DNA from: Candidatus Saccharicenans subterraneus
GTDB lineage: Bacteria > Acidobacteriota > Aminicenantia > Aminicenantales > Saccharicenantaceae
DNA length: 64,000 bases
Assembly: GCA_003426165.1 (NCBI GenBank)
Contig: QUAH01000008.1
Span: forward strand, 79,143-143,142
Direction: 5' to 3'
Shown here: positions 12,026 through 19,488 of the stretch, piece after piece
How the letters are laid out: each line of letters opens with the position of its first letter
Position numbering within the stretch: the stretch's first letter is position 1
Position numbers and translations under genes: made by a program
Notes under the pieces: model-generated
What the model was told of the DNA's origin: nothing
Seen by the model: the letters and a program-made list of their open reading frames with translations, nothing else
Databases searched by the model: none

Positions 12026-15007
12026 GTGAAAAGAATTGCCTTATCAGTCCTGTTATTTATGCTTCTCGCCTTCCCTGCCGTGGCCCAGATTACCCAGACG
12101 GGAACCCTGAACGGCACCGTCTACGATCAGGATAAGCAACCACTGCCAGGAGTCAGCGTTTCCATCAAGTCGCCGGCCCTGATTTCACCCACACTGGAAG
12201 CCGTGACCAATGAGCGAGGCCACTGGCGGTTCCCGGCCCTTCCCCCGGGGGATTACACAGTGACTTTCAAGCTGCAGGGGTTCCGGACCCTGATCAGGGA
12301 AGGCATAAAGGTCAACGTCGGTGTTACCACCACCCTGGACGTAACCCTGGAACAGTCGGCCATAGAAGAGAGCATCACCGTTACCGGCGTTTCTCCCACG
12401 GTTGACATCCAGCGGACTTCGATGACGGCCAGCATCACCCGGGACGTCATCCAAAGCCTGCCGGCTGCCAGGAACCTGGGGGCGTTCTTCAACATGGCTC
12501 CGGGTGTCACCTCGACCACGGTTCACGGCAGCTCTGAAAGAGACAACACATATAACATCGACGGTGTCAACGTCACCGACCCGGTGACCGGAACCCAGGC
12601 CGGCCAGTTCGGCATGGATGTTATGGAAGAGCTGTCGGTGCAGACCGGTGGCCTGCCGGCCGAGTACGGCAGCGTCCGCGGCGGCGTGGTCAACGTGGTC
12701 ACCAGGTCGGGCGGAAACCGGTTCAGTGGCGGGATCAGCTTCTTTTACAGAAACAAGGACATGCAGAGCACCAACACCAAGGGGACCATATTTGAGGGCC
12801 AGACCGGAGGTTTCGACTACGACTACGAACCATCGGCCAACCTCGGCGGGCCGATCATCAAGGACCGCATCTGGTTCTTCACCACTTTCGCCCTGCAGAA
12901 AACCCAGGAATTCTCGCTGGGTTATCCTTACGATCAGCCCAACCAGGTTCCCCTGGACTACAAGCGGCCCATGCCCTTTGTCAAGCTGACCATCCAGGCC
13001 ACCAAAAAAGACCGGGTGGTGCTGTCTTTCAATTTCTCAGACTATGTCAGAAATCACCGTGGCGCCTCTTCCTACCAGACGGTGGATACCACCTGGAAGC
13101 AGACCACCCCCATCTATACCTATAACTTCCAGTTAACTCACTTCTTCAACCCCAACCTCTACATGAACCTGAAGGCCGGCTACATGGACTATGCCCTGAA
13201 CCTGATGGCCAAGAACGACAAGGTCTGGGTCTACGATGCGCGGTATTACTACAACTACGCCAGCTACGGCTACGATGATATTTACAGCCGGAACCGCTTC
13301 CAGGCTCTGACCGACGCCACCTACTTTCTCGATGATTTTCTGGGCCGCCACGAAATCAAGGCCGGAGCCGAGTTTGAGTATTCCTGGGATAGCCGATACC
13401 GCCGGCACAATCGCGATGCCTGGGGCAATGGACCATTCTTCTACGTTCAGCTGCCATCGGGTTTAACCCCGGACCAGATTCCCAAGGACCTGGCCTCGCT
13501 GATCGACCGGGTTATTGCCGCCGGCATATCCCCCACCGGAACCTATCCTTACATGGTTCATTACCAGGACTTCACCCGCAAGGACCGGAAAATGGTCATC
13601 GGCGGCTTCCTCCAGGACACCTGGTCCCCGTTAAAGAGGTTGACCCTGAACATCGGCTTTCGTTTTGACCGCCAGGAGGGCATCCTGCCGGTCCAGGGCC
13701 AGGAAAGAACCCCGGTGGAATACCCCGCGGGAAGCGGGATCATCTACGACCCCCGGGTTAATGAACAGCTCAAGCCCCTGGTCTGGAATACCCTGGCCCC
13801 GAGGCTCGGCGCTTCCTTCGACCTGACCGGCGATGCCAAGACCGCCCTCAAGGTCAGCTTCTGCCGCTACTACATCGCCAACATCATGCAGTGGTTCGTC
13901 ACGGTCAACCCCAACAGTTTCATCTCCTGGAGAACCCACTATATCGTCAACGACGGAACCGACCCGAATTACCCGATAGACCCCAACGACCCGCTGACCA
14001 GGCTGCGGCCCAACCCCAACCGGTTAATGTATAATTTCAGCGCCACCGCCTCGGCCACCATGGACCCCAACCTGAAGTCCCCCTACCTGGACGAGTTCAT
14101 AATCGGCATCGAAAGGGAAATCCTGGCCGATACCCGTTTCGGTGTAAGATACATCCACAAGTGGGACCGCAACCTGATCGAAGACGTGGACCTCAACCGC
14201 CTGAACCTCAACTTCTATAAGGCCCTGTATTCAGTAAAGGGTCACGACGCCATTTTTGACCCCAGCTGCTGGTACATCTATGCCCCGGTCACGGCCACCG
14301 ACCCCTGGAACAACCAGACCGTAACCTTCTGGAGAAGGACAGACCCCGGAATGACCACGCCCACCAAGACCTTTGTTACCAACCCGCCCGGGGCCAAGAG
14401 AGATTACGACGGTGTCGAAGTCACCCTGAACAAGAGGTTCTCCCATCGCTGGTCGGCCATGGCCTCCTACGTGTGGCAGAAATCACGCGGCCTGATCGGG
14501 ACCGACTTCGATGACAGCTGGTCCGGACAGTCCTACTTCAACGACCCCAACGTCCACGTTTATGCCATGGGCAACTTCGGCTACGAACGGCGCAACCAGT
14601 TCAAGGTCCAGGCCATGTGGCAGGGTCCCTGGGGCATCATGATCAGCGGTTACTACCGGCTGCTGGACGGCCAGCGCTGGACCAGAAGGGTCAGGAGTTC
14701 TGACCTTGGTGTGACGTTACCGCAGGGTACAGTCACCATCAACGCCGAACCCCGCGGCTCCAGGAGCCTGCCGCCTCTGACCATCCTGGACCTCAGGGTC
14801 GAGAAGAACTTCAGGCTGCCGGGCCGGTTCGGGCAGTTCGGCGTTTTCTGCGACATCTTCAACGTGACCAACGTGGCCATTCCCACTGGAGTCCATTCCA
14901 TTTCCAGCAGCACCACGACCGTTTCCGGTAAGCGCGTTTCTTTCGGAGAGCTGACCAGCCTGACCGATCCCAGAGTTTTTAGACTGGGCGCCAGGTACTC
15001 CTTCTGA
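12026..15007 (+). CDS. TonB-dependent receptor with N-terminal carboxypeptidase-regulatory-like domain (Oar-like)
   Basis: GTG start, RBS AAAGGAGG; signal peptide; GTLNGTVYDQDKQPLPGVSVSIKSPAL; plug NTYNIDGVNVTDPVTG..EYGSVRGGVVNVVTRSGGNRFSGG; terminal beta-strand ending FRLGARYSF. Confidence 0.93.
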   Translation: MKRIALSVLLFMLLAFPAVAQITQTGTLNGTVYDQDKQPLPGVSVSIKSPALISPTLEAVTNERGHWRFPALPPGDYTVTFKLQGFRTLIREGIKVNVGVTTTLDVTLEQSAIEESITVTGVSPTVDIQRTSMTASITRDVIQSLPAARNLGAFFNMAPGVTSTTVHGSSERDNTYNIDGVNVTDPVTGTQAGQFGMDVMEELSVQTGGLPAEYGSVRGGVVNVVTRSGGNRFSGGISFFYRNKDMQSTNTKGTIFEGQTGGFDYDYEPSANLGGPIIKDRIWFFTTFALQKTQEFSLGYPYDQPNQVPLDYKRPMPFVKLTIQATKKDRVVLSFNFSDYVRNHRGASSYQTVDTTWKQTTPIYTYNFQLTHFFNPNLYMNLKAGYMDYALNLMAKNDKVWVYDARYYYNYASYGYDDIYSRNRFQALTDATYFLDDFLGRHEIKAGAEFEYSWDSRYRRHNRDAWGNGPFFYVQLPSGLTPDQIPKDLASLIDRVIAAGISPTGTYPYMVHYQDFTRKDRKMVIGGFLQDTWSPLKRLTLNIGFRFDRQEGILPVQGQERTPVEYPAGSGIIYDPRVNEQLKPLVWNTLAPRLGASFDLTGDAKTALKVSFCRYYIANIMQWFVTVNPNSFISWRTHYIVNDGTDPNYPIDPNDPLTRLRPNPNRLMYNFSATASATMDPNLKSPYLDEFIIGIEREILADTRFGVRYIHKWDRNLIEDVDLNRLNLNFYKALYSVKGHDAIFDPSCWYIYAPVTATDPWNNQTVTFWRRTDPGMTTPTKTFVTNPPGAKRDYDGVEVTLNKRFSHRWSAMASYVWQKSRGLIGTDFDDSWSGQSYFNDPNVHVYAMGNFGYERRNQFKVQAMWQGPWGIMISGYYRLLDGQRWTRRVRSSDLGVTLPQGTVTINAEPRGSRSLPPLTILDLRVEKNFRLPGRFGQFGVFCDIFNVTNVAIPTGVHSISSSTTTVSGKRVSFGELTSLTDPRVFRLGARYSF

Positions 15008-15201: not shown

Positions 15202-16959
15202 ATGGTCGAAAAAAAAGATACTGTCCCCCTATCTTTCTGGGAAATCCAGAAAAAACAGCAGCGGGCTTCTCTCTTTTTGTTCCTGATGCTCTTTGTTTTT
15301 TATTTCCTGACCATAGGCCTGGTTTCCGCGGCCATCCTGATGACAGCCGGCGCCTTTCTGGCCTCCTTCACCTTTTTTGCCAGCTCTTTCTTCTATAAAT
15401 ACACGGCCATTGTCTTCGGGATAGCCCTGGTCCTGACTATCATCAATTTCATCCAGGCCAGGAAAAGCGGGGTCAGCTACATACTTAAAAACCTCAGGGC
15501 CTGTTCCCCGGACCCGGAAGATCGCTATCACCTTAGTTTTCTCAACATCCTGGAAGAGATGAAAATATCTTCCGGGCTTCTCGGGCTGCGTGGCTACATC
15601 ATACCCACGGTGAACCTCAACTCCCTATCGCTCATCGGCCAGGATGGCCTTCCGGCCATCGTGGTCACCGAAGGTCTTCTGGCCGAGGCCAGCCGAGACG
15701 AACTCCAGGCCGTGGTGGCCCATGAAACGGCTCACATCCTCAAGGGTGACACCTTTTTCCTGACCCTGTCCTGTTCCATAGTTGCCTTTTACCAGCAGCT
15801 CATAGACTCCCTGGATGAGGAGAGGGATTTAAGCCAGTCCGACCTGAAACATCCCCGTAGAGGTAGGGGGTCGGCCCAGCCGCTGATTTACCTGGCCAGC
15901 TTTTTCTCCTACCTGCTGCTCAATTTCTTCGTGGCCCTGATCAGCCAGAAAAGAGAAATTCTGGCCGACGCCACCGCCGTGGAGCTAAGCCGGGACCCGA
16001 TGGCCCTGGCCCGGGTCATCTACAAAGCCCATGTGGCCAATTCTTTTCTCGGTGACAGCAGTCTTTTCACCCCGCTCTTTCTGGTCCCGCCCGACTCCCG
16101 GGACATCCAGGAAACGCCCCGGGATAAACTGTTCAATACCCATCCCCCGGTCATGCTCCGGCTCAAGACCCTGGCTGACATGGCTCATAAGAATGTAAAG
16201 GAAGTTATGGAAGAAGTCAGGGCCCAGGAAGAACAGCGAGAGAAATCGCGCCTTCTTTACAGCTCGCTCGAAGACAGCAGTCCTGACTACCAGGAAAAGC
16301 TGCGGGAGTTGCAGCTTCGGGCCAGAGAGGATCTGGAAAAGAACAGCATCTGGCTGGCCAGGAATGCCCGAGGTCAATGGGACGGTCCCCTGGCCCTGGG
16401 CTCGCTGGTTACGCTTCCCTACTTCACGCCCGCTACCAGAATTAAGAACATCAAGGAAAACCTGGAGGGGCCGGCCCGGAATTTTCCCCAGGTTCGCTTC
16501 GCCCTGTACCGGCAGCTCAAAAAACAGCCCCTGGACCCGGCCACGCAAAATAAATGCCCGACCTGCCGGACGGAACTGACCGAAGCTTTTTATGAAGGGG
16601 TCAGGATCAAGAAATGCCAGGCCTGCCAGGGTAAACTGGTGGCCATGGCTGACCTGGAAAAAATCTTTGCCCGGAGAGAGCTGGCCTTCCCCGACTGGCT
16701 GAAGCAAAAAGCCCTGGCCTACCGGGAAGCACTGCTAAATCCCGACCTAAAGCCGCCGGTCCTCAAAGAAAAGCCCCCGGCCATCTGCCCCGAATGCGGC
16801 CTGCAGTTTACCCTGAGGCCCTTCAGTTACCACTACCTGATGCCGGTTTACAAGTGCTATCCCTGCCAGCGGATCTGGTTCGAGGACCAGGAACTTGAGA
16901 TCCTGCAAATCCTGGTAGAAAACCGGTCTCGAAACCACTCGCCGGCCAGTCGGACCTGA
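15202..16959 (+). CDS. M48-family (HtpX-like) membrane zinc metalloprotease with two C-terminal TFIIB-type zinc ribbons
   Basis: HETAH motif, third ligand region KREILADATAVELSRDP, N-terminal and central TM helices; CPTC..CQAC and CPEC..CYPC at the C-terminus. Confidence 0.85.
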   Translation: MVEKKDTVPLSFWEIQKKQQRASLFLFLMLFVFYFLTIGLVSAAILMTAGAFLASFTFFASSFFYKYTAIVFGIALVLTIINFIQARKSGVSYILKNLRACSPDPEDRYHLSFLNILEEMKISSGLLGLRGYIIPTVNLNSLSLIGQDGLPAIVVTEGLLAEASRDELQAVVAHETAHILKGDTFFLTLSCSIVAFYQQLIDSLDEERDLSQSDLKHPRRGRGSAQPLIYLASFFSYLLLNFFVALISQKREILADATAVELSRDPMALARVIYKAHVANSFLGDSSLFTPLFLVPPDSRDIQETPRDKLFNTHPPVMLRLKTLADMAHKNVKEVMEEVRAQEEQREKSRLLYSSLEDSSPDYQEKLRELQLRAREDLEKNSIWLARNARGQWDGPLALGSLVTLPYFTPATRIKNIKENLEGPARNFPQVRFALYRQLKKQPLDPATQNKCPTCRTELTEAFYEGVRIKKCQACQGKLVAMADLEKIFARRELAFPDWLKQKALAYREALLNPDLKPPVLKEKPPAICPECGLQFTLRPFSYHYLMPVYKCYPCQRIWFEDQELEILQILVENRSRNHSPASRT

Positions 16960-17381: not shown

Positions 17382-19223
17382 ATGGCTAAGAAAAAACTTT
17401 TGCTGATCGATTTTGACCAGGAATTCCTTAAATTTTTAGCCGGGGCCCTGTCTGATGAGGGCTTCGAGATTGTGACGGCAACCGATGGCCTGGCCGGATT
17501 TGAAAGATTTTCCGAGGCCCATCCCGACCTGGTCATCATGGAAGCCATGCTTCCCAAATTCCATGGCTTTGAACTATGTTCCCGCATCACTTCCCACCCG
17601 ACCAAGAAAGCTCCGGTCATAATCGTCACCGGGATATACAAAGATTCGGTGTACAAGACCGAAGCCCTGAGAAGCCTGGGCGCTTCGGCCTTTTTCGAAA
17701 AACCTCTTAACCTGGAAGAACTGCTCAACAAGATATATGAACTGGTAGGCCGGCCGGAGCCGAAGAAGGCTCCCGTCCCGCCCAGGCCCGCCGACAAGGA
17801 GCTGGACCAGCTATTGAAAGAAGCGCTGTCCATGGACATGGAAGAAAAGAAGCCGGAGCAGAAAGTCAGGCCGGTGGAAAAGCCCGGGCCGGTTGAAAAG
17901 CCTGCACCCAGGCCGGCCCCGACCAGAGAACCGTCCCTGACCAAGGATGACGAAGTCGACTTAATCCTCAAATCAAAGCTAAAAGACCTGATGATAGAAA
18001 ACTCCAAGCCGGAACCTCAACCTGCACCCAGGCCGACAACCAAGCCTGAAAAAGAAAAACCTGCAGCCAGACCGGTTGAACCGAAGAAAACGGCTGCGCC
18101 GACTCCTGATAGCCTGCTGGATGAACTTATAAAAAAACCTGCGGCTGCCCCCGCCGCCCCCAGGCCGGCCAAAGTTGAACCGACCCCGGTCGAAAGCAAG
18201 CCTCAGCCTGCCCCCAGACCCAGACCTGAAACCAAACCGGAACCTGTAAGAGAACCCAGGAAAGAAACCCGTCAGGTTCCGACTACCCCGCCGGCTGAAA
18301 GCAAGTCAAGAACTTCAGCTCCATCAGCTCCGGTGGTCACGCCTTTCAAGGGCTTCATTGAAGAAGAAAAAGAAGACAAGAAGGAAAAGTCCCGAAGCGG
18401 AGCCGGAAGATACATTGGCCTGGCCGCAGCCATCCTGGCCGTAGCCGGCGCCGTGGCCTTCTTAACTCTAAAGAAAAAGGAGGCCCCGGCTTTCAGCGGA
18501 CAGACCAGCAACCAGGCAGCCGCTCTCCAGACCGGCAGCACCGGGCCCGTCAGCAGCCAGCCTTCGGAAACAGAGATACAGCAAGAAATAGAAAAGCAGA
18601 TGGAAGCCTACCGGGCTCAGAAAACCCAGGGCGAGACCAGGACCCAGAACAGACAGAACCAGGGTGGCGGCAGGCAGACCTCAAGAAACGCTGAAGCTGC
18701 CCCGGTCGCGCCTTACATCCCGGAGCAAAAGACCAGCCTGGCCACCATGAACAACCCCCAGCCGGCCGAGCAAGCCAGCACCACAGCACCGGCTCAGGCT
18801 GAAACGGCCACCCAGACTGCCGGGACCGAGACAGCCGGTGGAACCGAAGAAAAGGCCGCCGACCAGAATCAGGCTGTCTCCGAGCCCCAGGTAGTAATTC
18901 CTGCCCAGGAGGTCAAGCCCGGCGACCTGGTGCCGCTCAACACGGTTGACGTGGAGCCAAAGGTGGTGAAGACTGTCGAACCGGTCTACCCCGAAGCCGA
19001 CCGCAGGATGGGCATCAAAGGCCAGATTCTGCTCAACGTCCTGATCTCAGAAAACGGAGATGTCCTTGATGCGGCTGTTATCAGAGGCATCAGGGGGTCC
19101 GTGGCCCTGGAAAAGGAAGCCATCAACGCTGTCAAAAAATGGAAATTCTTGCCAGCCGAGAAAAATGGTGTTAAAGTAAAGGTCTGGAAGCCAGTGACTA
19201 TCGGCTTCGGCCTGAATAAATAA
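17382..19223 (+). CDS. receiver-like domain - Pro-rich linker - TM helix - periplasmic linker - TonB C-terminal domain fusion
   Basis: N-term KKLLLIDFDQEFLKFLAGALSDEGFEIVTATDG...VIIVTGIYKD...FFEKPLNLEELL; TM IGLAAAILAVAGAVAFLTL; C-term VKTVEPVYPEADRRMGIKGQILLNVLISENGDVLDAAVIRG...AVKKWKFLPA. Confidence 0.88.
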   Translation: MAKKKLLLIDFDQEFLKFLAGALSDEGFEIVTATDGLAGFERFSEAHPDLVIMEAMLPKFHGFELCSRITSHPTKKAPVIIVTGIYKDSVYKTEALRSLGASAFFEKPLNLEELLNKIYELVGRPEPKKAPVPPRPADKELDQLLKEALSMDMEEKKPEQKVRPVEKPGPVEKPAPRPAPTREPSLTKDDEVDLILKSKLKDLMIENSKPEPQPAPRPTTKPEKEKPAARPVEPKKTAAPTPDSLLDELIKKPAAAPAAPRPAKVEPTPVESKPQPAPRPRPETKPEPVREPRKETRQVPTTPPAESKSRTSAPSAPVVTPFKGFIEEEKEDKKEKSRSGAGRYIGLAAAILAVAGAVAFLTLKKKEAPAFSGQTSNQAAALQTGSTGPVSSQPSETEIQQEIEKQMEAYRAQKTQGETRTQNRQNQGGGRQTSRNAEAAPVAPYIPEQKTSLATMNNPQPAEQASTTAPAQAETATQTAGTETAGGTEEKAADQNQAVSEPQVVIPAQEVKPGDLVPLNTVDVEPKVVKTVEPVYPEADRRMGIKGQILLNVLISENGDVLDAAVIRGIRGSVALEKEAINAVKKWKFLPAEKNGVKVKVWKPVTIGFGLNK

Positions 19224-19248
19224 AGAGGGTTAAAAAGGAGTCAAGAAG

Positions 19249-19488
19249 ATGAGCATCTCCAAGGAACAAGAAGAGCTTTACAAAAAGACTCTGGAGGATG
19301 TTCGGGCCCAACTGGCGGCTATCGACGGCGAGGTGGAGAAGGAGCTGCAGAGAGTCAGACAGACCCTGGCTCAACTCCAGGAACAGAAAAAGTCCCTGAA
19401 GATGGTCTACGAAGGAATCGCCAAGTTGCTGGGGATCGAAAGCGACCTGGAAGAAGAGTCCGCGGATACCACCATCCCCAAGATGTAA
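19249..19488 (+). CDS. small coiled-coil protein of unknown function
   Basis: 79 aa heptad-rich ORF 26 nt after the receiver-TonB gene, RBS AAGGAG. Confidence 0.65.
   Translation: MSISKEQEELYKKTLEDVRAQLAAIDGEVEKELQRVRQTLAQLQEQKKSLKMVYEGIAKLLGIESDLEEESADTTIPKM

Follow-up and report, generated by a model that had tools for sequence, protein, structure and literature searches.

A pseudo-receiver joined to a transmembrane TonB_C domain in Aminicenantales, apparently a kinase-less member of an Acidobacteriota family

The fusion gene and its neighbours

The window analysed here, a stretch of 64,000 nucleotides from Candidatus Saccharicenans subterraneus, contains on its forward strand (17382..19223, ATG start) one intact open reading frame of 613 amino acids in which a receiver domain, a Pro-rich linker, a single transmembrane helix and a TonB_C domain follow one another. 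The initial annotation had read this order from the sequence, and Pfam and AlphaFold agree on it: across the full frame both domains score above their gathering thresholds, Response_reg (PF00072) at residues 7-118 (E=2.5e-19) and TonB_C (PF03544) at residues 533-610 (18978..19211; E=6.3e-17), and the predicted structure shows two confident globular domains, the receiver (residues 5-122; 17394..17747) and TonB_C (residues 528-609), both with pLDDT of about 90-96, together with one transmembrane helix (residues 342-363; 18405..18470). The receiver resembles solved receivers with TM-scores of up to 0.95 by target length (Foldseek), the FrzS receiver (2i6f) being among the matches, and the TonB_C domain matches TonB C-terminal domains in the PDB. 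Two short helices are predicted in the cytoplasmic linker, the first (residues 136-153; 17787..17840) around ELDQLLKEAL and the second (residues 188-206; 17943..17999) with the conserved short motif DEVDLILKSKLKDL, and a further helix is predicted in the periplasmic part behind the membrane segment (residues 396-422; 18567..18647; pLDDT up to about 87); the linkers are otherwise mostly disordered.

The protein has one transmembrane segment and no N-terminal signal peptide was seen, so the topology is most likely N-in/C-out, which would place the receiver in the cytoplasm and the TonB part in the periplasm, as initially proposed. Positive charges flank the membrane segment on either side, with means of +1.6 for the C-terminal flank and +0.6 for the N-terminal flank, and the positive-inside rule is not decisive here.

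Only 25 bp after the fusion gene, and preceded by a Shine-Dalgarno-like AAAGGAG (19234..19240), lies a forward-strand gene for a 79-amino-acid helical protein of coiled-coil type (19249..19488), which has no Pfam family and is predicted by AlphaFold as one long helix (residues 5-61). Neighbour clustering places this small gene beside nearly every Aminicenantales fusion, while the other neighbours vary between families, and its product is more conserved within the order (53-91% identity) than the fusion itself (29-95%), the linkers of which diverge fast. Upstream of the fusion, as also across the genus and in locus L072, is a gene for an M48 peptidase with C-terminal TFIIB-type zinc ribbons (585 amino acids; 15202-16959). 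Two genes upstream is an outer-membrane beta-barrel with CarboxypepD_reg, TonB-dependent-receptor-like (12026-15007), whose product is a possible ligand for the TonB_C domain. Rfam found no RNA near the fusion gene, and promoter and terminator pattern scans around it gave nothing usable.

Receiver residues and distribution in Aminicenantales

A search of 60 relatives gave matches at E<=1e-30 in 49, and every one of the other 18 members of the genus is in that number. Receiver and TonB_C form one continuous frame in 16 of these 18 (two of the frames ending at a contig edge); of the remaining two genomes, one has the gene split by a contig break and the other yielded its 3' end only. Families f1, f3, f4 and f5 have full fusions and f6 a divergent one, and about fifty columns are invariant across 20 fusions. 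Since most genus genomes, and no fewer than four families within the order, show the same frame, a sequencing or assembly join of two separate genes is excluded, and this conservation, together with the receiver Glu described below, indicates that the fusion is real and old. Neither the fusion nor the small helical gene was found in four f2 genomes and G023, which were searched for both, and three f6 genomes have the helical gene with no recognisable fusion, so that the pair is not strictly obligate. At the f6 loci L138-L141 the fusion-less helical gene encodes an extended charged C-terminus, and in three of these four loci a gene annotated by eye as an EamA-like membrane protein lies beside it.

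The receiver carries Glu54 (codon GAA; 17541..17543) at the position of the CheY phospho-acceptor Asp57, as the initial annotation had read, and none of the 35 aligned Aminicenantales fusions departs from this Glu; within the order no orthologue with Asp at this site and a cognate kinase was found. The acidic pair, earlier described as altered, is so in its second member only: the position of the Mg2+-binding CheY Asp13 is occupied by Phe11 (17412..17414), and by Phe (21) or Tyr (14) throughout the 35 aligned fusions, but the equivalent of Asp12 (D10) is intact. Thr83 and Lys107 are retained, as annotated, and so is Phe104. Thus the alignment contains no Asp57 equivalent and only the first of the two Mg2+-binding acids, and the fold is kept with the switch pair of Thr and aromatic residue and without the phospho-Asp, the combination by which aspartate-less receivers are recognised. 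This supports the suggestion that the domain is a binding-type pseudo-receiver.

Outside Aminicenantales the phospho-site varies (18 Ser, 5 Thr, 5 Asn, 4 Arg, 4 Asp, 3 Glu and 3 Ala among 42 members) and the Asp13 position is again replaced, including in all four of the distant members that have Asp at the phospho-site. Because the relatives mostly carry Ser, Thr, Asn, Arg or Ala and the second Mg2+-binding acid is replaced throughout, loss of phosphorylation is best seen as a conserved trait of the family. A receiver driven by a histidine kinase was rejected on these residue states, namely Glu54 and Phe11 in the window protein and the family-wide substitutions.

Kinase-bearing relatives and the accD-folC linkage

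A profile of the small helical protein (A1) matches 138 of 396 Acidobacteriota genomes, and at 60 of the matching loci, spread over many families of the phylum, we surveyed the gene upstream of it. The survey recovered 55 members, a few of which end at contig edges: 34 with receiver, kinase and TonB_C, five with kinase and TonB_C, 11 with a kinase and no TonB_C, two with receiver and TonB_C and three with TonB_C only. The most frequent order is therefore a degenerate receiver, a Ser/Thr kinase, a transmembrane helix and TonB_C, on which Pfam agrees for representatives; the first kinase-bearing member encountered was L056, from a Thermoanaerobaculia record. These kinases have the catalytic HRD and DFG motifs, and the spacing from the stop codon of the upstream member to the start of the helical gene is mostly 9-50 bp. 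The window protein shows the same receiver, transmembrane helix and TonB_C followed by the small helical gene, and Pfam finds no kinase domain in it. Since family kinases are 49-63% identical to the kinase of L144, while the seven Ser/Thr kinase hits in the window genome reach at most 43%, no orthologue of the family kinase was found there; mere relocation of the kinase was rejected on the same identities, with the caveat that the genome is 93% complete.

In a maximum-likelihood tree of receiver and TonB_C (54 rows) the kinase-less Aminicenantales rows nest within kinase-bearing ones, with at least three label changes, one of which is the distant L195. The kinase-bearing L144, from the same class, has in a single run a Glu receiver, kinase, TonB_C, small helical gene, accD and folC, and sits among the kinase-less rows with weak local support (86/78). 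The window protein thus appears, by sequence comparison, to be a kinase-less descendant of a kinase-bearing family, and on the simplest reading the Glu would have arisen ahead of kinase loss; given the weak support around L144, kinase loss is the preferred order on parsimony rather than a proven one. The protein at L195:2680-5961, far from Aminicenantales, is a kinase-less Glu-type receiver and TonB_C joined by an acidic linker of great length (about 800 amino acids), and perhaps represents a second kinase loss. More kinase, transmembrane and TonB_C proteins, also with a His-less membrane segment, occur at other loci of genomes already in the set (L221 and L226; G106:C3:82758 and G200:C26:2088). 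Opposite-strand genes near the kinase-bearing loci L185, L189, L194 and L180 were identified by eye as yebC, ruvC and/or of MotA/ExbB type.

The accD and/or folC genes lie directly downstream of the small helical gene in 22 of the 60 loci, accD being the gene for an acetyl-CoA carboxylase subunit. accD is absent from all 18 Aminicenantales fusion loci examined, and standalone Glu-type receivers are found directly upstream of accD-folC in 14 of 16 Aminicenantales loci. The window genome has one of these receivers, of 150 amino acids, on the reverse strand (L002:1456-1908; G000:C17:55605-56003). This split arrangement fits a duplication or fission of an ancestral gene.

The cytoplasmic linkers share a further trait, a motif of the pattern [DE]-hydrophobic-[DE]-x-hydrophobic-hydrophobic-x3-hydrophobic-x2-hydrophobic, which coincides with the predicted helix at residues 188-206. 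It occurs in 35 of 35 fusions (shuffle mean 0.1) and in 19 of the 55 other family members (shuffle mean 0.2), and is absent from every periplasmic linker; as the pattern was written after seeing these same sequences, the counts are descriptive and the contrast with shuffles and periplasmic linkers is their useful part. The first linker helix resembles the motif and is left outside the counts. We infer that the motif may contact the small helical protein.

A literature search covering open-access papers turned up no account of a family that fuses TonB_C to a receiver or to a kinase, and the main texts of two surveys (PMC4395418, PMC4558063) mention neither such a family nor a receiver-transmembrane-TonB_C architecture. 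The receiver-(kinase)-TonB_C family of Acidobacteriota is thus apparently undescribed in the open-access literature.

Motor contact, function and relation to known systems

TonB and TolA touch their motors through a Ser/His motif (SHLS) in the transmembrane helix (PMC12204202). Among the TonB_C proteins of eight genomes this His is present in 12 non-fused TonBs, and it is absent from nine of nine receiver or kinase fusions; the membrane helix of the window protein has none, but the window genome itself encodes two TonBs and a TolA that have it. The His-less non-fused forms mostly resemble secreted proteins or lipoproteins, with signal-peptide-like N-termini (L207 and L219 being unclear), and so TonB_C has uses other than energy transduction in these genomes as well. 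Across the 79 TonB_C members of the family with a clear membrane segment, a His lies within three residues of that segment in four, and in at least three of the four it is at the edge. The window genome has just two MotA_ExbB genes, one in a tonB-exbB-exbD operon and one in a Tol-type operon, which have their own TonB and TolA, and no ExbB/ExbD gene stands beside the fusion gene within the window. The missing His makes motor-driven energisation doubtful, and with the motors so placed the initial description of the protein as an energy transducer is not upheld.

The reading that we favour, with moderate confidence, is that the fusion is a bitopic receptor or scaffold derived, by loss of the kinase, from the receptor-type Ser/Thr kinase family, in which a helical linker stands between pseudo-receiver and kinase, and not an ExbB/ExbD-driven transducer. 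Under this proposal the periplasmic TonB_C would bind a TonB-box-like stretch in a partner located in the outer membrane or the periplasm, and binding would be relayed through the membrane helix into the cytoplasm. There, the pseudo-receiver would act as a docking domain independent of phosphorylation, and the linker helices would, with the small helical protein, assemble cytoplasmic partners. The output of the kinase-bearing relatives would be phosphorylation, and that of the Aminicenantales lineage scaffolding or recruitment alone, so that the fusion protein may act as a receptor or an envelope tether.

Alternatively, the receiver might recruit or control an ExbB/ExbD-driven TonB and so switch outer-membrane transport from the cytoplasm. 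The TonB_C domain is genuine, ExbB/ExbD are encoded in the genome and the TonB-dependent-receptor-like gene lies upstream (see above), but the fusion lacks the His that canonical TonBs and TolA keep, a membrane segment shared in its His-less form by the kinase-bearing relatives; no ExbB/ExbD gene adjoins it, the canonical operon has a TonB of its own, and the MotA/ExbB-type gene near some kinase-bearing loci is on the other strand. GltG of Myxococcus, an FHA-transmembrane-TonB_C protein, interacts with the AglR motor (PMC3169522), and since such a protein can bind a motor we keep this reading alive, as an unlikely one. It is likewise improbable that the protein is a polarity or localisation scaffold, in which the output face of the pseudo-receiver would target a cell site and TonB_C would anchor it to the outer envelope, as has been proposed for Glt proteins. 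The FrzS pseudo-receiver, itself one of the fold matches, works through its output face without Asp phosphorylation (PMC1974792), the Thr83 and Phe104 pair is retained, and the long disordered linkers and helical partner would suit such a role; however, no motility or polarity genes adjoin the fusion, and the kinase-bearing relatives favour signalling over pure localisation.

A receiver locked on by a Glu that mimics phospho-Asp, a mimicry that the initial annotation noted for some receivers, is distinctly less credible. The Glu is invariant within the order, and Asp-to-Glu changes activate some regulators, for example NtrC (Klose et al., 1993, as cited in PMC4395418), but the varied phospho-site across the phylum marks Glu as the form of one lineage, so that the general function is something other than phosphomimicry, and throughout the family the second Mg2+-binding Asp has been replaced. 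That the protein is a degenerate relic, functionless since kinase loss, is scarcely believable: the linkers do diverge fast, but the receiver, motif, transmembrane helix, TonB_C and adjacent gene are kept in at least four families, with the invariant columns noted above.

The receptor or scaffold reading can be set beside several known systems. Like the fusion, canonical TonB and TolA are single-pass inner-membrane proteins with a periplasmic spacer and a TonB_C domain; the fusion differs in having its membrane helix in mid-protein, behind a cytoplasmic part of 340 residues, without the Ser/His motif or adjoining exbB/exbD. Receptor Ser/Thr kinases of the PknB/PASTA type combine a cytoplasmic kinase, one transmembrane helix and an extracytoplasmic binding domain, a layout that the kinase-bearing relatives resemble, but with TonB_C in place of PASTA and an additional N-terminal pseudo-receiver; the window protein differs from them in being kinase-less. 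FrzS, RitR and ChxR share with the fusion a receiver fold that has lost its phospho-Asp and kept the Thr and aromatic switch pair; the fusion is set apart by the transmembrane TonB_C part to which its receiver is joined. In the gliding machinery, GltJ/AgmX has a cytoplasmic regulatory domain, a transmembrane helix and a periplasmic TonB-like domain, and we know of no small helical partner gene for GltG or GltJ. The same arrangement is found in Myxococcus GltG, a protein with cytoplasmic domain, membrane helix and TonB_C that belongs to an envelope-spanning machine (PMC3169522). Where these two have FHA or zinc-finger domains the fusion has a pseudo-receiver, and membership in a Glt gliding module was rejected as the fusion has neither of those domains and no aglRQS or glt genes lie nearby.

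Extending the proposal to the phylum is more tentative. Possibly, TonB_C throughout Acidobacteriota serves as the ectodomain of a receptor kinase that reads a TonB-box partner in the outer membrane or periplasm across a His-less, motor-free membrane helix, with the kinase, pseudo-receiver, motif and helical protein as the interpreter, perhaps tuning fatty-acid synthesis, accD being in the same operon; in Aminicenantales this system would have been split, with loss of the kinase, relocation of the receiver-TonB_C-helical unit and a solitary Glu-type receiver staying behind at accD-folC.

TonB_C domains are labelled 'energy transducer' by annotation pipelines. Their occurrence here on a membrane helix without motor contact, mostly behind a Ser/Thr kinase, suggests that TonB-type recognition has been reused for trans-envelope signalling, which would give bacteria a means, open to experimental test, of sensing the state of their outer membrane. 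The family also provides a conserved partner protein outside Pfam, and a natural series (receiver, kinase and TonB_C together; kinase lost; TonB_C lost; receiver alone) with which the role of a pseudo-receiver after the loss of phosphorylation may be probed.
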